Shown: in pieces, positions 41 to 64,000 of the stretch
Layout: the number at the start of each line of letters is the position of its first letter
How positions within the stretch are numbered: position 1 is the first letter of the stretch
IMG/VR virus record: IMGVR_UViG_3300047476_002124
Coordinates: 1 to 64,000 of that record
DNA: 64,000 nucleotides
Strand: one strand, 5' to 3'
From: a virus
Program-made: the position numbers and the translations under genes
The notes under the pieces: model-generated
What the model saw: the letters and a program-made list of their open reading frames with translations, nothing else
Databases searched by the model: none
What the model was told of the DNA's origin: nothing

Positions 41-2677
41 ATGTCATATCAAAATATAAATCAATATGTATTCAGAAGGTTATACCTTAAACCATTAAGG
101 GAAATAACTGATATATCGTTAGCATCCGACGAAAAAGACTATGACCAAGAGGTGGTTTTTTCTCCTTTATTAATAGGTGAAGATGATGGTAATAGAATGC
201 CTTTAAAGTTTGATTTCAATAGCTCAGGTACAACAGATTGTATAAATTGTGGTGATTTTGATAAAGATACGATAGTTTCTGAAAATTATTGGAACCCGCT
301 CGATTCTGATTTGACAACTTGTGGAACAATAACTGAGATATGTGATGTCGGTTTAACTGGTATAGACAATGGGTTAGTTAGAGAATTTTCGGGTGAAACG
401 ATAGAACTGAATAGCGGACTTTATACCTCACGTGCTGATAGATTTTCAAGATACAAGTATGATAGAAGATTCAAAATGCACCCAATTACAGGGTTTACAA
501 CATCATCAGATAGAATACTTGACGACAATTCATATTCGTATGAAGTTAGTTTCGATAACGATATAAATGTTATAGGAAACTATATCAAATTCAATGGAGG
601 GTTCTATCAAGGATTTTATAAGTCATTTGGTTACGACTACCAAGTTTTACCTGAAAGATACAATTTAGGTTGGACCTCGGAATTTATTCTAAGATATAGA
701 TGGACAGGTGACACTGATACTGGTTTAAATGCTAGATACCCAAATAACAAAGGAACTTTCTTTTACTACGGTGCAAGAGCTGAAAACAAATTTTATCATT
801 ATGCGGATGGTTCACCACTATCAGATAGTGGGTATACAAGAGTTACTGAGGGTTTGAATTGTTTGGAAACTTGTGGATGTTCTTCCTCGGCAAATACTGC
901 ATCAACTTGCAACTACGTATATCAACAATCAGGAGTAACTTCTCAAAATTGTAATTGCGGTCAGTGTCCTTGTAACTGTACAACTTATGCAAGTATTCCA
1001 GAGAAAGACCCTAAATGGGACGAGGTCTCCAACGCTATGTCTTTGAGGTTAAGTGGAGATACGGGTAGCCCAAGACTTTGTGTGAAGACATATAGAATAA
1101 CAGGTGATTGCGAAACAACGGGAACTTGTACCACAGGATTAACATATACAACAGGAACGAGTGTAACAGAATGGTGCTCAACGAGAGGTATATTTGATGA
1201 CTGTAGTGGGAGCACTTATGCTGACGTAGAAAGATGGGTACAAATAGATACGGTTTTTGAAAGAAATACCTATTTGGATGATTGTGATTTATTATACAAA
1301 GGTGGGTTAGGTGAGATAGTTAAAACTGTTTACACCGCAAGCTCTGCCAATAACAGTGTGAGTTTGATACAACCGCCGATAACTCAGGAAGTTGATTATG
1401 ACCCAGCAACTGTGGAAGTTGTTGAGATGAATCAGACTTGGCTGGATGAAAAAAATTATAGATTAGGAACACTCAAATTTTACGTTAACGGTAAATTATT
1501 TTTAGTCGTAAACGGATTCGAAGAAATCATACCGAGACCGTTGAACACTTTAAGAGAAACCCAATTTGGTGTTGCATATAACATTTCATTAGGCGGGGGA
1601 ACACAGGGGTTACATGATAACTTGACAGTGACTGGTTGTTCAACCACTTTGTCAGGAATGACATATCAGCAAGACCCAGAATGTTTACCTACCGACATAT
1701 TAGATGAGACAGTTTATTCTGGTTTGACAACTCATATAAAACTCGAGGAGTATTTTGGAGGAAGTTTTTATGGCGATATCAGTGCATTTAGAATGTATAC
1801 CGAACCTTTGAATGGAGCTCAAATAAGACATAACTTCAAATTATTAAAAGAGAAATACGCGTTGTTGGACCCTTTTTGTTTGAGGTGTAATAACTCCTTT
1901 GTACCTGTACCTGTAACTCCTACGCCATCTAATACTCCAACTTTAACACCAACACCTACATTAACCCCCACCCCAACTTTAACACCAACAGATATTACCG
2001 AAGGTTGTTCTTTGATATTTTTTGGATACGTGGGACCAAATCCTCCACTATTTGAGTTTACAGATTGTTCGGGTAATACAATTCAAATGAACGGAGTTGA
2101 TTCGTGGAATGCCGATTATTGTGGAAATTATGATAGTGTAATTATACTTTCTGGTGATGGTGTTTTTGACTATGTAGAAACTTGTACTGACCCATCAATG
2201 TATAATCCTATCACAGTACCTTTAGGTTATAGTTTCACCGACCCTAGTGAATCTTGTACAAACACACCGCAAGATTTTTATCAATCTCCAAGTGAATCTT
2301 TGGTGGTTGGAGGCCACATATATTCGGATTACTCTTTAGACCCTTATTATTATGTTACTGATGGATATTTTTCTGATGGAACGAATGTTTATATAGTCAC
2401 AGGAGGTACAGGGTATATTGATTCAATAATACCATGTACAGCAACTCCGACACCTACACCAACTCCAACTGAAACTCCGACTAATACACCTTCTGAAACA
2501 CCAACCAATACTCCAACACCTACACCAACATTAACAGAAACACCAACTAATACACCAACTAATACTCCCACTGAAACCGAAACTCCTACTCCAACACCAA
2601 CTAATACACCTACCAATACTCCAACATTAACAGAGACTCCTACTGAAACACCAACACCTACCCCGACAATACCTTAA
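41..2677 (+). CDS. Tail fibre/adhesin with LamG-like region and Pro-Thr mucin-like stalks
   Basis: Probable virion surface protein of 878 residues. The middle reads like a concanavalin A/LamG-type beta-sandwich: a [18 protein letters not shown] segment near residues 190-210 and a [13 protein letters not shown] strand near 585. Residues about 272-315 are a dense cysteine cluster with about ten Cys. Two low-complexity Pro-Thr stretches follow, near residues 625-650 and from about 801 to the C-terminus, separated by a small domain. Such Thr/Pro stalks are typical of exposed, often O-glycosylated linkers. The start ATG at 41 follows a hairpin and a TATTTAT motif. A strong terminator follows the gene, and glycan enzyme genes come next, so glycosylation of the stalks is plausible. 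The exact structural role is inferred. Confidence 0.7.
1910..1991 (+). repeat. Internal Pro-Thr coding repeat
   Basis: Short degenerate repeats based on ACACCAACN/ACTCCNACN encode alternating Thr-Pro with Leu, Ser and Asn. The tract links the LamG-like part to the next domain of the same protein. Confidence 0.8.
2441..2674 (+). repeat. C-terminal Pro-Thr coding repeat (mucin-like)
   Basis: About 230 bp of degenerate 6-12 bp units encode TPTPTP, ETPTNTP and related words up to the stop codon. The units resemble those of the partial gene at the right end of the window, so the two tracts could recombine. Confidence 0.85.
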
Positions 2678-2703
2678 AATTAATTTAAATAAAAACAATA
2701 TTA

Positions 2704-2729
2704 CCCTCTACTTTTGTAGGGGGTTTTTT
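2704..2729 (+). terminator. Rho-independent terminator
   Basis: The stem CCCTCTAC/GTAGGGGG (2704-2711 and 2716-2723, one G-U pair) with loop TTTT is followed by a run of six T. It ends the first fibre transcript and separates it from the glycan gene cluster. Confidence 0.85.
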
Positions 2730-2753
2730 ATTTTTCCTATAAAATATTATTAC

Positions 2754-4019
2754 ATGAAAATTTTTGTTCAAATTGCGTCATACAGAGACCCTCAGTTAGT
2801 ACCGACAATAAAAGATATGTTAGCAAACGCCAAAAAACCAAAAAATCTTGTTTTTGGTATTGCTAGACAATATTCAGAATCCGATGGGTTCGACAATTTA
2901 GATGAGTGGAGAGATGACGAAAGATTCAGAATCTTGGACATCCCTTACCAGGAAGCTCAAGGTGTTTGTTGGGCAAGACACTTAGTTCAACAACTTTATC
3001 AGGGAGAAAAATACACATTACAGATTGATTCCCACATGAGATTTGTTAAAGATTGGGATGACATTTTAATAAAAATGATTAAGGGTCTTCAAAAGGATGG
3101 GTATAAGAAGCCTCTACTTACGGGCTACGTACCTTCCTTTGACCCTGACAACGACCCAGCGGGAAGAGCAACGGATGCATGGAGAATGGTTTTTGATAGA
3201 TTTATTCCTGAAGGTGCCATCTTCTTTTTACCTGAAACAATTCCAGGATGGAGGGAGATGAAGAAACCAGTGACATCTAGATTTTATTCTGCACACTTCT
3301 GTTTTACTTTAGGAGAATTTGCTAAAGAGGTTCAACATAACCCTGAGTATTATTTCCATGGTGAAGAAATTTCTATTGCGGCAAGAGCCTATACATGGGG
3401 GTATGATTTGTTCCATCCTCACATACCAGTTGTTTATCATGAATATACTAGAAAAGGTAGAACTAAACAATGGGATGATGATAAAGAATGGGTAAAGAAA
3501 AACCAATATTGTCATTTATTAAATAGGAAATTGTTTGGAATGGATGGTGAAAAACAAGAAGGACACGATGGTGAATTTGGATTTGGTCCTGTTAGGACTT
3601 TAAGAGACTATGAGAAATATTCAGGTATATTGTTTGAGCAACGTTCAATACAACAATATACAAGAGATAAAAATTATCCCCCCAATCCGTACAATTACAG
3701 TAGTGAGGAGGAATGGAAAGAAGATTTCACTAAGATATTCAAGCATTGTATCGATATTGGATATTCTCAAGTACCTGAAAAAGATTATGACTTTTGGGTA
3801 GTTGCATTCCATGATAAGAGTGATGAAACTATATACAGAAGAGACGCGGATAAAAATGAGATTGCAGGATTTATGAGAGACCCTGATGGGTACTGCAAAG
3901 TATGGAGAGAATTTCCAACAAAAGAGTTGCCAAGTCATTGGGTTGTTTGGCCACATTCAGAGTCTAAAGGATGGTGTGATAGAATCACAGGTCAATTAAA
4001 CCATAATAATGTAAGTTAA
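2754..4019 (+). CDS. Skp1-GlcNAc-transferase-like glycosyltransferase
   Basis: Predicted sugar-nucleotide transferase of 421 residues, resembling the GlcNAc glycosyltransferase family (PF11397). The eukaryotic prototype of that family adds GlcNAc to hydroxyproline of Skp1. Visible hallmarks are the N-terminal QIASYRDPQL (about 6-15), GVCWARH (about 70-76), a metal-site variant DSH (92-94, in QIDSHMRF) in place of DxD, and the acidic FHGEEI motif near residue 200. The gene opens a run of four glycan genes and lies just behind a fibre whose C-terminus is nearly all Thr and Pro, a natural acceptor candidate. The acceptor and sugar donor are not known from the sequence. The length fits a single GT-A domain plus an extension. 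Confidence 0.75.
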   Translation: MKIFVQIASYRDPQLVPTIKDMLANAKKPKNLVFGIARQYSESDGFDNLDEWRDDERFRILDIPYQEAQGVCWARHLVQQLYQGEKYTLQIDSHMRFVKDWDDILIKMIKGLQKDGYKKPLLTGYVPSFDPDNDPAGRATDAWRMVFDRFIPEGAIFFLPETIPGWREMKKPVTSRFYSAHFCFTLGEFAKEVQHNPEYYFHGEEISIAARAYTWGYDLFHPHIPVVYHEYTRKGRTKQWDDDKEWVKKNQYCHLLNRKLFGMDGEKQEGHDGEFGFGPVRTLRDYEKYSGILFEQRSIQQYTRDKNYPPNPYNYSSEEEWKEDFTKIFKHCIDIGYSQVPEKDYDFWVVAFHDKSDETIYRRDADKNEIAGFMRDPDGYCKVWREFPTKELPSHWVVWPHSESKGWCDRITGQLNHNNVS

Positions 4020-4022
4020 TTT

Positions 4023-5279
4023 ATGAAAATAGTAGTTGCACAGTTTTATTCAGAAAATGTTGTTTATGGTAGTTTTGCAAAAGAAATAAATGAAAGATAT
4101 TGTAACTTACAAGGATATACGTATTTCGCGGAGACTAACACAGAAAAAATTAAAGATAAATTACAGGGTCGCTCTTGGACTTGGTATAAACCTCATCTAA
4201 TAAAAGATGTTTTTACCCAACATCCTGATTGTAGTCATGTTTTGTTTTTGGATATTGATGCGGTTTTCAGTACTGAAAATAGAAGAATTGAGGGGTTCAT
4301 TGATGATACTGCCGATATCGTTATGACTAACGATTACGGACCTTCTTTGGTCAATGCTGGGGTTATGTTAGTCAAGAATACCGATTGGTCAAAAAATTTC
4401 ATGGATGATTGGTGGAATATTTGTGAAGAATTTCCGCAGTACAAAACAGGATTGTGGCATGACCAAACTTGCATTGGTTTTTTATACCAAAGAATTGACA
4501 GGTCTAAATTTAAAATTATTGATTATTCTGATTTAAATTCAAAAGATTATGATGAGAGTAAATTTGTTTTCCATGCCTTTGCTTATGGAATGCTACCCTA
4601 TAGGACAATAGATGCAATCTATAATCGTAAGTTTAACATCACCACAAACATCGACATGGGTTTAAATGAATTGGCAAAACATCATGGTACAGACAAATTT
4701 TATCACCACAATTATTACACAAGAGTTTACGAAAATCTTTTTAGACCTTATAAAAAGTCTTGCGACATCCTGGAGATTGGGGTCTACTTTGGTTCTAGCA
4801 TAAAAGTGTGGGATGATTTTTTCGATTCAGGTCTTGTTCATGGTATTGATATAGAACCAAAAAATTTAGGTTATGGGAGAGTAGAGTGTTTCGTTGCCGA
4901 CCAATCCAACCAAGAAAGTCTTAGGCAATTCTCAGACTTAGGTCATCAATACGACATAATTGTGGATGACGGTTCACATAAAATGAAAGACCAACAGATA
5001 ACTGTTCAATTACTTTTTAAAAATTTAAAAAGTGGGGGGACCTTCGTTATTGAAGATTTACAAACCTCAATAGAATGTAGAATGCCTTCCAAAGTTATTT
5101 TTGGTTGGGGAGACCCAAATAAGACGACTTTTTTGGATATGATAGACAGTATCATTGCCGGCTCACCAAAAAGTGATTATATTACATCAGAATGGGATTA
5201 TTTTATTTCAAATATTTCTGAAGTTTGGATAAGTAAAGATAGAGATGACTCTATAATCGCAACAATAAAAAAGAAATAA
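4023..5279 (+). CDS. Glycosyltransferase-methyltransferase fusion
   Basis: Two-domain enzyme of 418 residues. The N-terminal half (about 1-205) looks like a GT34/GMA12-type galactosyltransferase-like fold: LFLDIDAVF contains a DxD metal site (D77, D79), followed by NAGVMLVKNT and HDQTC. The C-terminal half (about 210-418) is a class I SAM-dependent methyltransferase with motif I in CDILEIGVYFGSS (about 247-259), HGIDIEP, DIIVDDGSHKM and FVIEDLQTS. This pattern matches the MycE/macrocin-type sugar O-methyltransferases. A fused sugar transferase and methyltransferase suggests that an added sugar is capped by O-methylation. The gene starts 3 nt after the previous gene's stop, so the two are co-transcribed. 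The substrate is unknown. Confidence 0.7.
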   Translation: MKIVVAQFYSENVVYGSFAKEINERYCNLQGYTYFAETNTEKIKDKLQGRSWTWYKPHLIKDVFTQHPDCSHVLFLDIDAVFSTENRRIEGFIDDTADIVMTNDYGPSLVNAGVMLVKNTDWSKNFMDDWWNICEEFPQYKTGLWHDQTCIGFLYQRIDRSKFKIIDYSDLNSKDYDESKFVFHAFAYGMLPYRTIDAIYNRKFNITTNIDMGLNELAKHHGTDKFYHHNYYTRVYENLFRPYKKSCDILEIGVYFGSSIKVWDDFFDSGLVHGIDIEPKNLGYGRVECFVADQSNQESLRQFSDLGHQYDIIVDDGSHKMKDQQITVQLLFKNLKSGGTFVIEDLQTSIECRMPSKVIFGWGDPNKTTFLDMIDSIIAGSPKSDYITSEWDYFISNISEVWISKDRDDSIIATIKKK

Positions 5280-5280
5280 A

Positions 5281-6240
5281 ATGATTAGTATTGTATACCA
5301 TTGTTTTTTGGTAGGAAATTGGAAAGAGGTTGTTACATCACAACTATTTAGACTAAAAAAATCAGGATTGTATGACAGAGCCGATTCTATCTACGTGACC
5401 ATAAATTTATCGGAAGGAACTGAAGAAGAATTCAATGAAATCACAAAAGAATATGATAAACTAGAAAAAGAATTTTTCCCTAACAATGGTGCAGAATATC
5501 CATCTATAAAAAAAGTCAGGGAGATTGGTCTATCCAAAGAGACAAAAATTCTCTATTTTCACACCAAAGGTGTTAGTAATAGGTACCGAAAATATCAATC
5601 GAATGAAATATCTGTTGATAAAATTAAAAATATTGAGGCATGGAAAGAATGTTTGGAATATTTCCTTATTGACAGATGGGAAGAATGTATAAATAAAATG
5701 GACGAATATGATAACGTAGGAGTTACATGTATTTTAGGATGGTTTTGGGGTAATTTTTGGTGGACACAGTCAAGACACGTAAAAAAAACTAAGGAAGTAC
5801 AACATAGTACAAGATGGGCTTATGAAGCTTGGTTAAACGAAGGGGTTACTGATGTTAAAAACTATGAATGGTACAGATTTACATACAACCCGTATGTCAC
5901 TAATATTGAAGAATCTTGGTATAAAGAACCTCCAAAATATGAAGGACAAAAAATTATTTTACACAAAGCAACGTATGGTTCCCCCAATTTTGACATAGAT
6001 GAAGGATATTATGATTCCATATTAGGAGTTACGAAAGAAGTAACTGAAGTTATCCAAAGATTTTTGGAAAAAGAAAATTTTCTTAGGTTTAATTTCAATG
6101 TGAACAATAATAGTATGGAAATTGACCCAATACACATGTCAAAAAAATTTTTAATGTTAGAGTTTTCTCCAGAAAGTGACCCATCAAAAGTTTTCAAAAT
6201 CGGTGCTCACGAAGGAATGACTTTAGACTTTAGATTTTAA
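5281..6240 (+). CDS. HTKG-motif glycosyltransferase-like protein
   Basis: Protein of 319 residues, one base after the preceding stop codon. It carries the ILYFHTKGVSN segment (HTKG about 94-97) and a downstream WGNFWW motif (about 156-161). I associate this pair with a family of putative glycosyltransferases in phages, large viruses and polysaccharide loci. No clear DxD is seen. The C-terminal 60 residues may form a separate small beta-rich part. Its place in a run of sugar enzymes supports a role in glycan assembly or modification. The enzymatic activity is inferred from family resemblance and context only. Confidence 0.5.
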   Translation: MISIVYHCFLVGNWKEVVTSQLFRLKKSGLYDRADSIYVTINLSEGTEEEFNEITKEYDKLEKEFFPNNGAEYPSIKKVREIGLSKETKILYFHTKGVSNRYRKYQSNEISVDKIKNIEAWKECLEYFLIDRWEECINKMDEYDNVGVTCILGWFWGNFWWTQSRHVKKTKEVQHSTRWAYEAWLNEGVTDVKNYEWYRFTYNPYVTNIEESWYKEPPKYEGQKIILHKATYGSPNFDIDEGYYDSILGVTKEVTEVIQRFLEKENFLRFNFNVNNNSMEIDPIHMSKKFLMLEFSPESDPSKVFKIGAHEGMTLDFRF

Positions 6241-6271
6241 AAAATAAAAAAACATATAATTTTCAATTTGT

Positions 6272-8659
6272 ATGACCGATTATAAGAACGAGATAAAAAT
6301 TTGGGACGAACATTCCAAGATGCACATACTCAACGCAACATCTATTTTAATAAAAGAGCTCAAAAACAGACAGGACATAGTCATTGTGGATGTGGGGGCG
6401 AACAGTGGAACTTATTTTGATGAGTTGAGTAAGTCTTTGAAAGTGTCTCGAGCAATTTTATTTGAAGTTCAACCACAACTTTATTCTTACTTATGTGAAA
6501 AGTATAAAGATAAACCATACATAACTGTTGAAAATATTGCAATGTCCGATAGGGTTCAAGGGTTCGTATTGAACGACAGTGCATTCAAGTATGAAGTGGA
6601 AAATAGTGTAGGAACTCCCAATTACAATTTGGGGTTATCTAAAATTAACTACAATGAAAATTCCGAAATAAAGACAAATTATTTCGATAATATTAGGGAT
6701 AGGTATAATTTAGATAGAATCGACCTTCTCAAAATTGATACTGAGACTGAAGATTTATTAGTATTGAAAGGGTTCACAGAAACAATCAAATCACTCAAAC
6801 TAAAACCAATTATAGAATTTGAAAATAATTGGTGGGAAAAATACACATTAGAAGAATCACAAAAAATAGTTGATGATTTTTGTGCTCAATGTGGGTATAT
6901 TAACGATATTGATTTAGAAAGAAGAGGAGACCATTTTCTTTTTCCAATTACTGAAACTGTTGATGTTAATTCCGTAGATAGAAAAAATATTACAATTGTA
7001 ACTGGTTTGTGGGATTTGAAGAGAGGTGATTTAGAAGGGTGGGCTAAAAGGGATTTTCAACATTATAAGAATAAATTTTTCGAATTATTGGAAACAGACA
7101 TACCTATGTGTATCTGGATTCCTGAGGATTTGAAAGAAGAGGTTTTAAATATCAGGGGAAATAAACCAACAAAAATTTTCATAAAGAATGTTGAAGATTT
7201 CAAATCTTGGAACCCTTTTTTCGAGAAGATTCAAAGTATAAGAAACAACCCAAGTTGGAAAAATTTTGCCGGTTGGTTACCCGAATCTCCTCAAGCGGCT
7301 TTAGAATATTATAACCCAATGATGTTCACAAAGATGTTTATGTTAAACGATTCTGCTATAACTAATCCGTTCAAGACTGACTACTTTTTTTGGGTCGATG
7401 GTGGACTAACAAACACTGTGAGTAAGGGATATTTTACAAAACATAAAGTTTTGAACAATCTTGAAAATTATGTTCTGAAGAACAATAGTAAGTTCCTTCA
7501 TATTTCCTATCCATATGATGCAAATGAAGAAATACATGGGTTCGAAAGGAAAGCTATGGCAAGATATTGTCAAACAGACTTTGTAAATTATGTATGTCGT
7601 GGTGGGTTCTTCGGAGGGCACACTGAAAAAATAAATCAAATCAACGGATTGTATTATGGTGTAATGGAATCAACTCTAAAAGAGGGTTTGATGGGTGCTG
7701 ATGAATGTCTTTTTACTATTTTAGCTCACAGACATACAGATTTAATACACAGATTTGAAATTGAAGGTAACGGGTTAGTTTGGCCATTCTTCGAAGAATT
7801 GTTAAAGTATACCGAAATCGAACTAAAACAAGACCAAACATTTCTAAATCCTTCTAACTCGGCGTTATATGTGATTGGATTCAATAGCCCAAAACAATTC
7901 GAAACTTTGATAAAATCAATGTATGATTATGATGATGATTTTATAACAAAACCAAAAAAGTTTTTACTTGATAATTCATCTGATGAATCAACATTTGAAA
8001 TGTATTCTGACTTGTGTAATAAACATGGTTTCGAACATGTAAAAAAAGATAATTTAGGAATATGTGGGGGTAGACAATGGGTTGCTGAACATGCCGATAA
8101 TAACGGATTTGACTTTTATTTCTTTTTTGAAGACGATATGTTTTTTTACAATGGAGAAAGCACAACTTGTAGAAACGGGTTCAACAGATACGTTAAAAAC
8201 CTTTACAAAAACTCAATTGAGATTGCTCTAAAAAATAATTTTGATTTTGTGAAATTAAATTATACTGAGTTTTTCGGTGACAATGGAGTCCAATGGTCTT
8301 GGTATAATGTGCCTCAGCATATAAGAGAAAAATATTTTCCAAACAAAACCAAGTTACCTGTTAAAGGATTAGACCCCGATGCTCCAAGAACAAAATACAA
8401 TTCTATACGAACTTACAATGGTATACCATTTGTTGATGGAGAAATATATTATTGTAATTGGCCACAAGTAGTGACTCGTCATGGAAATAAAAAAATGTTT
8501 TTGGAAGAAAAATGGGCTCACCCATTCGAACAAACTTGGATGAGTTATATGTTCCAACTAACAACAAGGGGAGAGCTGAATCCAGGATTACTATTATTGA
8601 CTCCAACCGAGCACAATAGGTTCGAACATTACGAAGGAACTCTGCGTAAAGAATCATAA
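6272..8659 (+). CDS. FkbM methyltransferase - HtrL/YibB - glycosyltransferase triple fusion
   Basis: Protein of 795 residues with three recognisable parts. Residues about 1-230 form an FkbM-type SAM methyltransferase (VDVGANSG at 39-46, then LFEVQPQ and DLLKIDTETEDLLVLKGF). Residues about 238-510 resemble the HtrL/YibB (WlaTC) family of surface-polysaccharide proteins (TIVTGLWDLKRGD at the start, YFFWVDGGLTNTV near 371). Residues about 525-795 look like a GT-A glycosyltransferase with an FFFEDDMFF metal-binding motif. The three-way fusion implies that one polypeptide performs or scaffolds several steps on one glycan. It ends the four-gene glycan cluster and is followed by an AT-rich palindrome containing TATTTAT. 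Confidence 0.7.
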   Translation: MTDYKNEIKIWDEHSKMHILNATSILIKELKNRQDIVIVDVGANSGTYFDELSKSLKVSRAILFEVQPQLYSYLCEKYKDKPYITVENIAMSDRVQGFVLNDSAFKYEVENSVGTPNYNLGLSKINYNENSEIKTNYFDNIRDRYNLDRIDLLKIDTETEDLLVLKGFTETIKSLKLKPIIEFENNWWEKYTLEESQKIVDDFCAQCGYINDIDLERRGDHFLFPITETVDVNSVDRKNITIVTGLWDLKRGDLEGWAKRDFQHYKNKFFELLETDIPMCIWIPEDLKEEVLNIRGNKPTKIFIKNVEDFKSWNPFFEKIQSIRNNPSWKNFAGWLPESPQAALEYYNPMMFTKMFMLNDSAITNPFKTDYFFWVDGGLTNTVSKGYFTKHKVLNNLENYVLKNNSKFLHISYPYDANEEIHGFERKAMARYCQTDFVNYVCRGGFFGGHTEKINQINGLYYGVMESTLKEGLMGADECLFTILAHRHTDLIHRFEIEGNGLVWPFFEELLKYTEIELKQDQTFLNPSNSALYVIGFNSPKQFETLIKSMYDYDDDFITKPKKFLLDNSSDESTFEMYSDLCNKHGFEHVKKDNLGICGGRQWVAEHADNNGFDFYFFFEDDMFFYNGESTTCRNGFNRYVKNLYKNSIEIALKNNFDFVKLNYTEFFGDNGVQWSWYNVPQHIREKYFPNKTKLPVKGLDPDAPRTKYNSIRTYNGIPFVDGEIYYCNWPQVVTRHGNKKMFLEEKWAHPFEQTWMSYMFQLTTRGELNPGLLLLTPTEHNRFEHYEGTLRKES

Positions 8660-8675: not shown

Positions 8676-9053
8676 ATGGAATTTTTTATTAAAAAGAATG
8701 CATCCCTTCCAATTTTGAAAATGCAAGTTGTTAAAGACGGAAGGTCAGGATATCAACAATTGATGGAAGATTTAGAAGTATCTTCTATATACTTCTCTAT
8801 GGTAGACACAACCAATGGGATACCTAAAATAATTGATGCTCCTTGTGGTATTGTACCAATATACCTGCCTGCCGGCTCACCCCCTGAATATTATATTTAT
8901 TTCCAATTTAATTCAAGAGATACTAATACAGTTGGTAGATATAAAGGTGAGTTTTTAATTAAGAATGACGAAGGAAACTTAATTTTACCTTTAAGAGAAG
9001 AGATTTATATAAACGTCCAAGACAGTTTTTCTGCTATCGACCCTTGTTGTTAA
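8676..9053 (+). CDS. Small beta-rich protein of unknown function, probably structural
   Basis: 125 residues with no family I can name. The sequence alternates hydrophobic and polar residues as in a beta-sandwich (PILKMQVVKDGRSGYQQLMEDL, then IYFSMVDT, YYIYFQFNS, RYKGEFLIKN, REEIYINV). It ends with two cysteines. It resembles N-terminal attachment or accessory domains of phage baseplate/fibre proteins. A TATTTAT motif ends 4 nt before the start codon, as for other late genes here, which supports a virion role. It lies between the glycan cluster and the DNA polymerase gene. Confidence 0.4.
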   Translation: MEFFIKKNASLPILKMQVVKDGRSGYQQLMEDLEVSSIYFSMVDTTNGIPKIIDAPCGIVPIYLPAGSPPEYYIYFQFNSRDTNTVGRYKGEFLIKNDEGNLILPLREEIYINVQDSFSAIDPCC

Positions 9054-13443: not shown

Positions 13444-15192
13444 TTATCTCATTTCATTAATTTTATTCATTATCTCTTCTACGAAGTCTGAATCGTTCAG
13501 GTTATCCCCCATAACTGTTGCAATAACTTGTTTTTTCGCCATTAAAATATCATAAATTAAACCTTCAATTGTATTCTCAAATAAAGGATAATAAACCAAG
13601 ACATTATTTTTTTGGCCAATTCTATAGGCTCTGTCCTCTGCTTGTGAATGGTCTGAAGGAAGGAAAGATAAGTCATTCATAATGACCGCTTCCGCAGCTG
13701 TCAAAGTGATACCTACACCAGCAGCTTTGATGTTACCAACAAAAACTTTGACTTTATCATTTTCCTGAAATTGGTCTACACTATTTTGTCTTTCTATTTT
13801 TGACATTGACCCGTCTATTTTTACCGCTTGTTTTCCAAAATGATTAACAATCTGATTTAAAGAATCAGTAAAATTACAAAATATGATAACTTTTTTATCT
13901 TGTTCAATAATGTTCTCAGCTATTTCTATTGTCTGTTGAATCTTTTCATTTGCAATCACTTGTCTGACTTTAGTCAGTTTTGTAAACTGTACCGTTAATG
14001 ATTTTGACTCCTCAGGATTACTTCTATACCACTCGAAATATTCTCCCATTAATTCTTCGTACGCCTTCGATTTCAGTCTCAAATAGACAGGGGTAATAAT
14101 TTTATCAGGTAAATCCAAAACGTCCTCTTTCAATCTTCTTAATATCGTCCCTGATGTTCTGTCTCGCAGTTCTTCCAAATTGGAAGAACCCATAACATTC
14201 CAAACCTTTCTTGGTCCAACTTTAAATTGATATCCAGCACAATACCTTATGACATATGCCATCCAATTTTTAGCAACAGGAGAATCGACTAAACTAAGTA
14301 AGTTATAGTAGTCAATTGGTCTTGATGTCATAGGAGTACCTGTTAGTAACCATAACCTTTCAATATCTTTGACGATGTCATTTATTAATTTTGTTCTTTG
14401 TGCTTGAGCGTTTTTTATATAGTGTGCTTCATCTACAATAACCAAATCAAAATTTGATTTCAAAATCTGAGAATCCTTTTTCTTTTTTACATCATGAAAA
14501 TTTTTTATGATATCGTAATTTATAATGACAAAATCGTGTTCTGTACTAAAGTTTTTACTTTCAGCAATATACACAGGTCTATCAGTATAATTTTCTATTT
14601 CTCTTTTCCAGTTTATTTTGAGTGTTGCCGGACAGATAACTAAAATTTTCTTTGCTTTGGTTTCTAATGCCGCAATAATTGTACTTGTTGTTTTTCCGAG
14701 ACCCATGTCGTCTGCAAGAATGAATTTTTTGTTTTCGACTAACTTTTGAATAGACTCTTTTTGGTGTTCCATTGGGGGTCTGCTCTCATATTTTGAGTAG
14801 TCGATTATTACATCCTTTACTGTATTGTCTTTAATTAAAGACGCTTTCGGTACCCAAAACTCACTGAGTTCTCCATCCTGAAAAAACTTACCCCAAACAT
14901 GATACGCCTTTTCACTTTCGGCCAACAATTTTTCTATCCATATTTTTTCAGGTACTTTAGTAAGTAACTTATCGTTAGCAAACTTTTGTGCGAAATATGC
15001 ATCCAAAACAACCCACTTTTTTGCAACTTTTGGTATTTTATCGTGGTTGTTGATTATGTATTCTGATTGACTTCTTGTAGGATAAAACTTTCTATTTATT
15101 TCAGATTTTCTTTTTAGTTCTAAAATATAGTTATTTGAACCCTCATATATTTCAAGTATATCTAATGCTTTGGATTCTAAAGTTTGTTCCAT
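13444..15192 (-). CDS. SNF2-family DNA helicase/translocase
   Basis: Superfamily 2 ATPase of 582 residues. The Walker A motif is DDMGLGKTTS (161-170), motif Ia VICPATL, Walker B VDEAH (253-257) and motif III LTGTPMTSRP. The C-terminal lobe has VIIFCNF, VGNIKAAGVGITLT and motif VI EDRAYRIGQ. The RIGQ form and the two-lobe arrangement are typical of SNF2/SMARCAL1-type remodelling translocases, which can reanneal or remodel forked DNA. T4 UvsW plays a comparable role in fork regression but is a different SF2 subgroup. The gene follows the SET gene with a 2-nt gap on the minus strand. All core motifs are intact. Confidence 0.9.
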   Translation of the reverse strand: MEQTLESKALDILEIYEGSNNYILELKRKSEINRKFYPTRSQSEYIINNHDKIPKVAKKWVVLDAYFAQKFANDKLLTKVPEKIWIEKLLAESEKAYHVWGKFFQDGELSEFWVPKASLIKDNTVKDVIIDYSKYESRPPMEHQKESIQKLVENKKFILADDMGLGKTTSTIIAALETKAKKILVICPATLKINWKREIENYTDRPVYIAESKNFSTEHDFVIINYDIIKNFHDVKKKKDSQILKSNFDLVIVDEAHYIKNAQAQRTKLINDIVKDIERLWLLTGTPMTSRPIDYYNLLSLVDSPVAKNWMAYVIRYCAGYQFKVGPRKVWNVMGSSNLEELRDRTSGTILRRLKEDVLDLPDKIITPVYLRLKSKAYEELMGEYFEWYRSNPEESKSLTVQFTKLTKVRQVIANEKIQQTIEIAENIIEQDKKVIIFCNFTDSLNQIVNHFGKQAVKIDGSMSKIERQNSVDQFQENDKVKVFVGNIKAAGVGITLTAAEAVIMNDLSFLPSDHSQAEDRAYRIGQKNNVLVYYPLFENTIEGLIYDILMAKKQVIATVMGDNLNDSDFVEEIMNKINEMR

Positions 15193-15194
15193 AA

Positions 15195-15593
15195 TTACTT
15201 AACCTCTGTGTGTGTTCTTCCATCGAGCCAATACCCATCACCGCCATAATAAACGAAGATTTCCTCGTGTGGATTTATATTTCTTGTTGAAATAAATTCA
15301 AAAGTGTAGTTATTCATATTAGACCTCCATGAGGCATTTGGTGTGTTTGAATGATTATATAGAGAACCGTATCCCCATGTAATCACCTGTTTATCCCAAA
15401 AATCAGTACCTTGTGGCCAATTGAATCTGTAATCAATAAAGAGGGGGCTCGATTCACCTTTAGGTATTCCTAAATCAAAAATCGGACACTCTTCTATTAT
15501 TTCACCTTCCGCTATGAAGGTACTTGCAAAAACACCGTATCCATGAATATTACTTTTAGATACATAAATTTTGGTCGGTGGAAAGATTCTCAT
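15195..15593 (-). CDS. SET-domain protein (putative lysine methyltransferase)
   Basis: 132 residues making a nearly minimal SET domain. IHGYGVFASTFIAEGEII carries the GxG SAM-binding start, LYNHSNTPNASW carries the NHSxxPN pseudoknot motif, and INPHEEIFVYYGG carries the closing EExxxxYG motif. SET enzymes use SAM to methylate lysine side chains. The target is unknown here and could be a host DNA-binding protein, a ribosomal protein or a virion protein. It is the first gene of the minus-strand unit, with a TATTTAT motif 17 nt upstream, and stands back to back with the gp14-like gene. Small SET proteins occur sporadically in bacteria and viruses, so gene capture is likely. Confidence 0.85.
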   Translation of the reverse strand: MRIFPPTKIYVSKSNIHGYGVFASTFIAEGEIIEECPIFDLGIPKGESSPLFIDYRFNWPQGTDFWDKQVITWGYGSLYNHSNTPNASWRSNMNNYTFEFISTRNINPHEEIFVYYGGDGYWLDGRTHTEVK

Positions 15594-61086: not shown

Positions 61087-63218
61087 TGGCACAATTCGAT
61101 TATACAATATTAGTCACGGGAGATTGTCAAAGTAACCTTGGAGGGTCTATAAGTATATTACCTTTTGGAGGTACACCTCCTTATACCGTTGAGTGGACAA
61201 CACCTAATTTAGGGTCAGATATTTTAACTATTTTACCTTCCATAAGAAGTGGACTAGCTAGTGGTACTTATGCCGTTAGATTGAACGACTCCACTCTACC
61301 AATAAACAACGAGTTTTTTGTGAATATACCAGTGTCGGATGGAGTTTGTGTGACAATAGATGATTCTAATGGAACGACATGTGGATTAAATAATGGTTCG
61401 ATAACAGGAAGTTCATCAACAGAATATTCTTCAGCATCTTTTTATCTTTATAGTGGTACGGGAGAATTAGTAACGTCAGCGGTCACTAATACAGATACTA
61501 TAGTATTTTCCAATCTGACAGCAGGTACTTATAATGTTGCGGTATTGGATTTAGGGGGATGTACTGGATTCAGTGAAACTATAGTAATTGAAGATTCATC
61601 TCAATTTGATTACGGTCTTTATATAGTACCCAACTCAAGTTGTGGGGATAGTTTTTTAGGTAAGATTTACGTCACGGGAGAAACAGGTCCGTCCCCATAC
61701 ACATATTTGTGGAGTAACGGACAAACAACAAGTTACATAACTGGTCTAACCGAAGGTAGTTATTCGGTCACAGTTACAAATGCGGATGGGTGTGTTGTGA
61801 GTAAAGGTGCTGAAGTAACGAGAGTACAACCCGTAGGGTTCGGAAATTTTGTGGTCACACAACCAACATGTTTTTCTAATGATGGGGTTCTTACAATGAC
61901 AATTACTGGAGGAACTGCACCATTTTATTATTCAGCAAGTACAGGTGATTTTGCAATATCATATTCAACAACTTACAGTATATCAGGACTTACACCAGGT
62001 CAAATAAGTATAAAAGTGACTGATTCAGGGTTCTGTACATTCACAGAAACAACACAACTTGTAACTCCTAATGGTATGAGTTCTGTATCGATTACGGGTA
62101 GTAATTCTACATGTTCGAATACAGATGGTTCGATTTTGGTTTCGGTTCAAGGAGGCTCAACACCTTATACGTATACTTTGATTAATCCTACCGGAGACAC
62201 AGACGTGGTGTCAAATAATAATACAACACAGGAGTTTACAAATCTGACCGCAGGAACTTATTCTGTCTTTGTGGAAGACAGTTCAGGGTGTTCGTATAAT
62301 GATGAAATAACTTTAATCACAGAAAATAAATTTACAATATCAACACAAATTACTGGCTCAACCTGTGGTCTAAACAACGCTACGGTCGAGGTTTTGAAAT
62401 CTACAGGTGGTACAGAACCTTTTGATTATATTTTGGACGGGACAAGCCAGATAATTGATACTACTCAATCGGCTGTCACGTTTACAGACGTAAGTCAAGG
62501 AAATCACACCGTTTCAGTAGTTGATGCCGACGGATGTACACAAACTACAAATTTCTTCATAAGTTATTCTGAGCCAATTTCATATAGTTTATATTCTAAC
62601 TCATGTGGAACAGGTAACGAAGGTAGCATAACTGCATTCATTTCATCGGGAGTTCCTCCATTTACTTTTTATTGGTCTGAAAACGTGCCCAACAATCCAC
62701 AAGAAATAGCTGTAACAGGATTGACTGCAGGTACATACAGTGTAACTATTGTAGATAGCACAGGATGTTCATTGAGTAGAACAACTGATTTAGTCTGTAG
62801 TCAGAGTTTCATTTCATACCAACTTTATACAATGGGACAGGAAGAATTCCAACTTCAGTCAGGTACCAAATGTGGCCTGTTACAAATGTTGAATGAAGGA
62901 TTTGTGGATTTGACATCGGTGAACGAAGGATGTGTTCTGAATTCTGCGGTATTCATTGCAAAAGTAAGTGTTGACCCTACAGGTCTTACATACACAAATT
63001 CATTCTATACTGCAACTACATTGAATCAGGCACCTTCGGATAATTTATGGTATAATACATTGACAAGTTTACTTACATCAGTACCAGGAATTCAATCTGT
63101 TACAATAGATGCTTTGAGTAATAAAATTACAATACAAACTACTGTGGGAGGACCACTAAACAATCAAATTATAACGGTTGATGTCTTAATAGAATATGAC
63201 ATCACATGTAGACAATGA
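61086..63218 (+). CDS. SprB-repeat tail fibre / receptor-binding protein
   Basis: 710 residues from ATG 61086, which overlaps the preceding TAA as TAATG. A TTG nine bases earlier lies in frame but is not needed. Seven tandem repeats of about 75-90 residues follow one another: strand, Cys, GGxxPY/xPF, strand, LTAGTYxVxVxDxxGC. The clearest is about residues 195-250 (SPYTYLWSNGQTTSYITGLT, EGSYSVTVTNADGC). This is the SprB repeat, known from the mobile gliding adhesin of Flavobacterium. Each repeat has a Cys near its start and another in the closing GC. A separate C-terminal domain (about 580-710) follows. It is probably an extended fibre that binds the host. The next gene's ATG overlaps its stop. 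Confidence 0.8.
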   Translation: MAQFDYTILVTGDCQSNLGGSISILPFGGTPPYTVEWTTPNLGSDILTILPSIRSGLASGTYAVRLNDSTLPINNEFFVNIPVSDGVCVTIDDSNGTTCGLNNGSITGSSSTEYSSASFYLYSGTGELVTSAVTNTDTIVFSNLTAGTYNVAVLDLGGCTGFSETIVIEDSSQFDYGLYIVPNSSCGDSFLGKIYVTGETGPSPYTYLWSNGQTTSYITGLTEGSYSVTVTNADGCVVSKGAEVTRVQPVGFGNFVVTQPTCFSNDGVLTMTITGGTAPFYYSASTGDFAISYSTTYSISGLTPGQISIKVTDSGFCTFTETTQLVTPNGMSSVSITGSNSTCSNTDGSILVSVQGGSTPYTYTLINPTGDTDVVSNNNTTQEFTNLTAGTYSVFVEDSSGCSYNDEITLITENKFTISTQITGSTCGLNNATVEVLKSTGGTEPFDYILDGTSQIIDTTQSAVTFTDVSQGNHTVSVVDADGCTQTTNFFISYSEPISYSLYSNSCGTGNEGSITAFISSGVPPFTFYWSENVPNNPQEIAVTGLTAGTYSVTIVDSTGCSLSRTTDLVCSQSFISYQLYTMGQEEFQLQSGTKCGLLQMLNEGFVDLTSVNEGCVLNSAVFIAKVSVDPTGLTYTNSFYTATTLNQAPSDNLWYNTLTSLLTSVPGIQSVTIDALSNKITIQTTVGGPLNNQIITVDVLIEYDITCRQ

Positions 63219-64000
63219 CACAAGTAAGAATTGATACCATAACTGGGGTTAGTTATCCTATAGACATATACGTTGCTGACGTATACGGTAATAATAGGAC
63301 ATATTTAGCGACCGTTGTTAGTGGACCCGTTCCTCCAGAATTGGCTTATACAACACTACCGCCTCTTTTTGATAATGCTCCTGCGGTAATGATAATTGTA
63401 CTCGATGCTAACAATTGTGAAAAATTTGAAATAGTTCCATGTACCGTACCATCAACACCAACCCTAACACCAACCCCAACAGTTACATCAACACCAACCC
63501 TAACACCAACTCTAACATTAACTCCAACACTTACATCTACACCAACTTTAACCCAAACGCCTACACTTACTCTTACACCAGGATTGAGCCCAACTGTGAC
63601 ACCTACACTAACAAGTACCCCAACCGTTACACCAACACAATCCGTAACACAAACAAATACACCAACACCATCTGCAACTCAAACAAGTACACCAACAACA
63701 ACACCAACCCTAACACCAACTCAAACACTAACATCAACACCAGCAAATACACCAACGCAAACACCAACTCAAACAGAATCTGCAACCCCAACCCCAACAT
63801 CAACACAAACACCAACTCTAACAGAGTCTGCGACCCCAACTCCAACACCAACTTCTTCACCAACACTAACACCTACATTGACCACAACTCCAACGGTAAC
63901 ACCAACACCATCCGCAACACCGGCAGTAATTACGTTTGCTTATTTAATAATGGATGTAAATACCGTAGCGCAAAGAAACGAATTGGCAACATACATGTTA
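63215..64000 (+). CDS. Pro-Thr mucin-like surface protein (3' end outside window)
   Basis: The open frame starts at ATG 63215, overlapping the fibre stop (ATGA), and runs past the right edge; 262 codons are visible. The N-terminal 78 residues form a small beta domain (TQVRIDTITGVSYPIDIYVA, then APAVMIIVLDANNCEKFEIV). Residues about 80-236 are almost only Thr, Pro, Ser, Leu, Gln and Val in TPTLTPTP-like words. A new ordered domain then begins (VITFAYLIMDVNTVAQRNEL). The stalk resembles that of the fibre gene at 41-2677. It is probably another tail fibre or host-contact protein with an O-glycosylation-prone stalk. Confidence 0.75.
   Translation, partial: MTQVRIDTITGVSYPIDIYVADVYGNNRTYLATVVSGPVPPELAYTTLPPLFDNAPAVMIIVLDANNCEKFEIVPCTVPSTPTLTPTPTVTSTPTLTPTLTLTPTLTSTPTLTQTPTLTLTPGLSPTVTPTLTSTPTVTPTQSVTQTNTPTPSATQTSTPTTTPTLTPTQTLTSTPANTPTQTPTQTESATPTPTSTQTPTLTESATPTPTPTSSPTLTPTLTTTPTVTPTPSATPAVITFAYLIMDVNTVAQRNELATYML
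63447..63930 (+). repeat. Long Pro-Thr coding repeat
   Basis: About 480 bp of degenerate 6- and 12-bp units related to ACACCAAC(C/T/A)CTAACA encode the mucin-like stalk. The purine/pyrimidine bias also creates a spurious Val/Leu/Gly-rich open frame on the other strand. Confidence 0.85.

Follow-up and report, generated by a model that had tools for sequence, protein, structure and literature searches.

A GT60-family glycosyltransferase gene linked to a Thr/Pro-rich stalk suggests a virion-glycosylation module in a large phage

Our analysis of a 64,000-base stretch of viral DNA (the window; bases 1–64000 of a 68,132-base viral record) suggests that an island of genes at its start is a dedicated virion-glycosylation module acting on the stalk of the phage's own fibre, a reading to which we assign a probability of roughly 0.7; the chemistry is predicted. 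Glycosylation of virion proteins by phages is already known, in few cases, and how the target protein gets marked is mostly open; what is new here is a mucin-type initiating enzyme linked to its repetitive putative acceptor and to hypervariable extension genes. Because the putative acceptor and the proposed initiating enzyme are linked genes, and because the acceptor peptide is repeating and easily synthesised, the proposal is directly testable in vitro. A preliminary description of this DNA had proposed a dedicated pathway with which the phage O-glycosylates its own Thr/Pro stalks; that proposal is now well supported by the fold and catalytic residues of the first enzyme, by its linkage to Thr/Pro-repeat (TP) genes in separate lineages, and by the glycoproteins in the virion of a relative.

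The window contains genes for a tail sheath, a tail tube, a DnaB-like helicase, DNA polymerase B, and ribonucleotide reductase, and the largest relative of the record is 321 kb; the record is therefore probably a fragment of the genome of a large contractile-tailed phage. The genes of the island (Table 1) are, in order, a fibre-like gene, a gene for an enzyme of family GT60, a GT34-like gene fused to a methyltransferase, the gene for a 319-aa protein, an FkbM + YibB + GT-like fusion, a gene for a 125-aa protein, and DNA polymerase B. Beyond the second TP-stalk protein, past the end of the window, record positions 65168–67753 encode an 861-aa protein with a long SGTSGTSG collagen-like array (PF01391, 6e-40) and TPTP runs, and the ORF that follows has SGTSG repeats again. 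Elsewhere in the window, the minus strand encodes a 132-aa SET-domain protein (15195–15593; PF00856, 1e-13), which is unusual for a phage and is adjoined by an SNF2-type helicase (13444–15192).

Table 1. Features of the glycan island and of the second TP-stalk gene, in window coordinates.
Feature	Position	Strand	Basis
Putative fibre/adhesin, 878 aa	41..2677	+	ORF and conservation
Internal shorter Thr/Pro run, aa 618–658	1892..2014	+	composition
Mucin-like C-terminal Thr/Pro stalk, aa ~802–878, Thr at every second residue	2444..2674	+	composition
Intrinsic-terminator-like hairpin and T run, between fibre and GT60	2703..2724	+	kept in 46/49 distinct relatives
GT60/PF11397 polypeptide O-glycosyltransferase-like enzyme, 421 aa, proposed initiator	2754..4019	+	profile and fold
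DxH motif of GT60 (D92-S93-H94)	3027..3035	+	invariant in 38 phage homologues
GT34-like (GMA12/MNN10) domain fused to class I methyltransferase	4023..5279	+	Pfam/PHROGs; variable cargo
319-aa protein without family match	5281..6240	+	no relative in 80 related loci
FkbM methyltransferase (aa 40–209), HtrL_YibB (aa 239–494), GT-like C-terminus	6272..8659	+	profile matches
Conserved 125-aa protein between glycan genes and DNA polymerase B	8676..9053	+	ORF and relatives
Second TP-stalk protein, start; 640 aa, runs on to record 65137	63215..64000	+	ORF and composition

The first gene was described as ending in about 75 residues of Thr-Pro repeats, and the count agrees (~77 residues). We infer that its product is a fibre, that is, a component of the virion. 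Its N-terminal ~616 aa are 48–93% identical among relatives; a Pfam scan of the protein found no match, a sequence search of the PDB returned a low-complexity match to the stalk and nothing else, and the fold model of the N-terminus (from 13 sequences) is meaningless, with a pLDDT of 29. In distant lineages the module around GT60 is an adhesin module, holding SprB, YadA-head, collagen, lectin, and laminin-G families. As a measure of chance occurrence, the criterion that we use for TP repeats selects none of 115 random viral loci and one in a set of 119 Ala-Pro-repeat loci.

We expected the fibre and GT60 genes to form an operon. This was not supported: a terminator-like hairpin followed by a T run separates the two genes in 46 of the 49 distinct intergenic regions, as against 0 of 245 shuffled controls, and this conserved terminator splits the genes into separate transcription units, so the linkage of stalk and GT60 is not one of co-transcription in a simple operon. 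Between this hairpin and GT60 comes an AT-rich, CAAAATA-like stretch, a possible promoter of the GT60 transcript.

The resemblance of the next gene product to PF11397, noted in the preliminary description, is strong (3.3e-67; 227.9 bits, cut-off 21), with profile positions 2–43 and 96–350 aligned. A PDB sequence search with this protein found nothing; however, an AlphaFold (AF2) model built from 38 phage homologues has a pLDDT of 92.5, and the best 29 PDB entries by VIA are all polypeptide GalNAc-transferases (Z 18.8–21.9; next entry, Z 16.7), over ~280 residues at ~13% identity. Foldseek agrees; neither list contains a structure named as a GT60 enzyme, an absence that carries no weight. D92, H94, E205, and H229 are invariant in the 38 homologues, down to 34% identity, and the window enzyme has DxH in place of DxD, as in GT27. 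Families GT27 and GT60 have been grouped by a common mode of Ser/Thr polypeptide glycosylation in which DxH replaces DxD (PMC7185993). The Pfam scan found no ricin-type lectin domain in the GT60 protein; this domain is typically absent from GT60s (PMC8724618). A common fold alone does not prove a common acceptor.

The co-occurrence of PF11397 and TP-repeat genes was followed through related phages, a neighbourhood search that the preliminary description had suggested. The window lineage comprises 80 loci with GT60s 83–89% identical, of which 71 extend at least 1 kb upstream; in all 71 a TP gene lies upstream on the same strand, ending within 100 nt of GT60 in 65, although, with gene order fixed in this lineage, the 71 loci are not independent. 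More distantly, a TP gene occurs within ~10 kb of GT60 in 47 of 60 loci of a lineage at 37% identity and in 5 of 10 at 35%, as compared with 0 of 115 random loci; in these two lineages it is commonly directly downstream of GT60 or one gene off. On a tree of 44 dereplicated GT60s, the 34 that are TP-linked are spread over all three deep clades; TP presence and absence both occur in every clade, and the clustering of presence is no different from that of shuffled labels.

The association was also approached from the stalk: PF11397 is present in 10 of 50 unselected viral contigs with TP repeats and in 0 of 41 with AP repeats, and the GT60s in the ten contigs range from 79% to 27% identity. In these ten, GT60 and TP motifs are only moderately close to each other (Fisher p 0.003), because the genomes hold several TP genes. 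No GT60 was detected in the other 40 TP-repeat contigs. We tested and rejected a general tendency of TP genes to adjoin a glycosyltransferase, since in Pfam scans the neighbours of TP genes lacking GT60 are not enriched relative to the neighbours of AP genes; TP stalks thus either do not need a GT60 or are served by other enzymes elsewhere. Conversely, about 12 GT60 phage contigs of up to 178 kb, all fragments, have no TP motif, so the more distant GT60s may act on different acceptors. The preliminary description had held that related phages with the enzymes but no Thr/Pro stalks would count against it; these distant contigs go part of the way.

We also collected 80 bacterial loci with GT60 relatives, some of them MAG contigs of possible phage origin; the phyla in the titles of the records include Bacteroidota, Gemmatimonadota, Acidobacteriota, Verrucomicrobiota, and Proteobacteria. 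A TP gene was found in 19 of the 80 in a first count that has no random bacterial baseline, and in 18 in the count of distances, where 12 of the 18 TP genes are immediate neighbours of GT60, at 500 bp or less (combined p 2e-6). Among the neighbouring TP proteins, one has a GH64 beta-1,3-glucanase domain and another has fn3. Several begin with a twin-arginine-like signal and are possible Tat-exported glycoproteins; in the bacterial loci such a signal is present in 6 of 126 neighbours, as compared with 4 of 630 among the remaining genes (p 0.002). These signals on TP proteins would fit glycosylation in the cytoplasm ahead of export.

The preliminary description counted four glycan genes after the fibre; family matches bear this out for three, but the product of 5281–6240 has no match in Pfam, PHROGs, or NCBIfam and no relative in the 80 related loci. 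The gene at 4023–5279 combines Glyco_transf_34 with a Methyltransf_24-type domain (phrog_21658, 1.8e-22), and relatives at 39% and 36% were found in 2 of the 80 loci. The YibB/GT enzyme is constant, the relatives being ~55% identical to aa 239–795 of the window protein, which form its conserved core; the methyltransferase fusion is local. A PDB sequence search with the YibB region gave sub-threshold ABO-transferase matches only. Constant, too, is the order that follows, that is, the 125-aa gene and then polB. Between GT60 and the YibB/GT enzyme the genes are hypervariable, differing from relative to relative: among 74 protein clusters from this slot, the families that Pfam detects are overwhelmingly glycan enzymes (GT25, 11 clusters; FkbM, 7; GT10, 6; CmcI, 5; also GT7, GT11, a nucleotidyltransferase, and others). 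Because the slot genes differ in this way, the GT34-methyltransferase, the 319-aa gene, and the FkbM fusion of the window are local cargo. The capping of the glycan with methyl groups, as proposed in the preliminary description, is thus plausible in the window phage but is not general, the methyltransferases belonging to a cassette whose content changes between phages.

Families of this kind allow an alternative in which the enzymes remodel the surface polysaccharide of the host (LPS, capsule) to prevent superinfection or the loss of lysate, the TP stalk being a flexible spacer that is a neighbour only by virtue of a common variable region for host interaction. GT25, GT10, GT11, CmcI, and HtrL_YibB are known from bacterial surface-polysaccharide loci, so the cassette would fit, as would the many TP stalks without a neighbouring glycosyltransferase. 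However, the GT60 fold is of the polypeptide glycosyltransferase type, the enzymes of the island have no membrane segment (maximum Kyte-Doolittle <1.1), GT60 adjoins a TP protein and not a lipid-carrier enzyme or a flippase, and its link with the stalk recurs in different arrangements and in bacteria. We consider this alternative unlikely, although it is the best surviving competitor of a module that glycosylates the fibre stalk.

Somewhat less probable still is that the synteny is simply inherited, GT60 and TP stalks being core genes of one jumbo-phage lineage with no functional tie. The fixed gene order and the non-independence of the 71 loci are what such inheritance would give; in contrast, across lineages at 27–45% GT60 identity the TP gene may be upstream, downstream, or divergent, and the adjacency recurs in the bacterial loci. 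A comparison of large contigs, which controls for phage size, points the same way: a TP motif is present in 27 of 30 contigs with GT60 and in 4 of 26 without (175 and 5 hits per Mb, respectively; PF11397 was not found in the controls), the fraction of 27/30 being indicative because the GT60 contigs were hand-picked for length, known exceptions included.

The preliminary description took as its precedent the glycosylation of hydroxyproline in Skp1. In a Skp1-like scheme the prolines of the stalk would be hydroxylated and GT60 would then transfer GlcNAc to hydroxyproline; the enzyme that initiates Skp1 glycosylation in Dictyostelium is related to the mucin-type pp-alphaGlcNAcT (PMC8724618), and PF13640 2OG-Fe(II) oxygenases occur in 5 of 17 related records, with three in the 321-kb record. 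These hydroxylases are, however, unlinked to GT60, and none was found in most fragments or in the complete genomes of Xanthomonas phage XacN1 and Stenotrophomonas phage RAS14. The stalk itself also argues against a hydroxyproline acceptor: Thr occupies 76% of the positions in one alternate phase, whereas Pro accounts for only 41% of those in the other and often gives way to N, E, Q, or V, and the codons are a synonymous mix that uses all four Thr codons, which suggests selection for Thr rather than for a polyproline rod. TP stalks without GT60 have a like pattern, although weaker (64% Thr), so the pattern alone is no proof of glycosylation. By analogy, the acceptor is likely threonine; mucin-type Thr glycosylation, by the GT60 of Trypanosoma cruzi or the GT27 of animals, is a better precedent than Skp1, and we regard the Skp1-like scheme as very improbable.

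Equally improbable is that the glycosyltransferases hypermodify the phage DNA against restriction, by glycosylation of 5-hydroxymethyl-pyrimidines: polB lies downstream at the end of the island and the C-terminus of 6272–8659 weakly matches phrog_842 (beta-glucosyl-HMC-alpha-glucosyltransferase, 1e-4) and TAGT (0.01), but the GT60 fold is polypeptide-directed, the two PF00303 enzymes examined carry PFNIASY, with the Asn of thymidylate synthase and not the Asp of dCMP hydroxymethylase, and Tet/JBP was found in 0 of 19 related records, a weak test because its control matched nowhere.

For a module that glycosylates the fibre stalk, we infer the acceptor, the sugar, the order of the steps, and the biological benefit to be as follows. 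The soluble GT60 would place the first sugar, most likely an alpha-linked GlcNAc or GalNAc, on the threonines that occupy alternate positions along the stalk, acting in the cytoplasm of the host before or during assembly. Later enzymes would lengthen the glycan, the last of them being the conserved YibB/GT-like enzyme, and the hypervariable glycosyltransferases and methyltransferases encoded in between would set the outer sugars; in the window phage these may be O-methylated by the GT34-methyltransferase and FkbM domains. The predicted product is a sugar-coated stalk that is stiff and resists proteases, with an outer glycan that varies from phage to phage. That the stalk and GT60 recur together across many phages and some bacteria suggests that such phages build and vary sugar-coated fibres of their own.

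More tentatively, with the odds a little under even, GT60 and a Thr/Pro-rich protein may constitute a portable prokaryotic pair for mucin-type O-glycosylation that several bacterial phyla possess and that large phages have acquired; in the phages, GT60 and the YibB/GT enzyme at the end would stay constant while the genes between are swapped, giving a serotype-like variation of the fibre glycan. If so, phages and bacteria would both have mucin-type Thr glycosylation in the form of a dedicated acceptor-enzyme pair, and the fibre stalks of large aquatic phages would be glycoproteins with exchangeable sugars; this would bear on the protease resistance, adhesion, and immune recognition of phages and on the reading of Thr/Pro repeats in metagenomes.

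Among characterized enzymes, the GT60 pp-alpha-GlcNAc-transferases (T. cruzi TcOGNT-2, Dictyostelium Gnt2/Gnt1) have the PF11397 family and the DxH motif in common with the window enzyme, and the T. cruzi GT60 attaches alpha-GlcNAc to Thr/Pro-rich mucins, on Thr, as well as to the peptide KPPTTTTTTTTKPP (PMC3769586; PMC8724618). They are eukaryotic, secretory or cytosolic, and not encoded beside their acceptors, whereas the phage GT60 adjoins its putative acceptor and its substrate and sugar are predicted. The GT27 polypeptide GalNAc-transferases, whose acceptors are mucin-type, provide the closest solved folds and also have DxH; they are a separate CAZy family with a C-terminal ricin-type lectin domain, whereas the phage GT60 has no ricin match. 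Judged by its model, the window enzyme may work like a GT27 enzyme, but it is not filed as one. The PT-box linkers of secreted bacterial glycosidases are O-glycosylated Pro-Thr repeats, and the bacterial TP linker with a GH64 beta-1,3-glucanase next to GT60 resembles them; a PT-box, however, is a linker between enzyme domains, whereas the stalk in the window belongs to a putative fibre.

The cultivated relative XacN1 and the Stenotrophomonas phages RAS14 and CM1 have, as in the window, a GT60 (44–45% identity; in XacN1, ORF334 at 45%) and TP repeats, but their TP genes do not directly adjoin GT60, and they carry other glycan genes (carbamoyltransferase, GT9). The distance from GT60 to the nearest TP motif in XacN1 and RAS14 is ~9 kb, a spacing no tighter than expected by chance. 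XacN1, a phage described as being without tail fibres, encodes a dozen TP/SP-rich ORFs, of which five (ORF232–236) lie in tandem. Its virion proteome includes at least two glycoproteins, which the main text does not name, and its authors propose phage glycosyltransferases as the cause; the available text of that paper does not note the link between TP repeats and GT60 (PMC5852040). Finally, mycobacteriophages glycosylate their own capsid and tail-tube proteins with phage-encoded glycosyltransferases (Freeman et al., 2023, as cited in PMC12619734); those targets are capsid and tail-tube C-termini whereas the target in the window is a putative fibre stalk, but in the mycobacteriophage system, as we propose for the window, phage enzymes modify the phage's own virion proteins.
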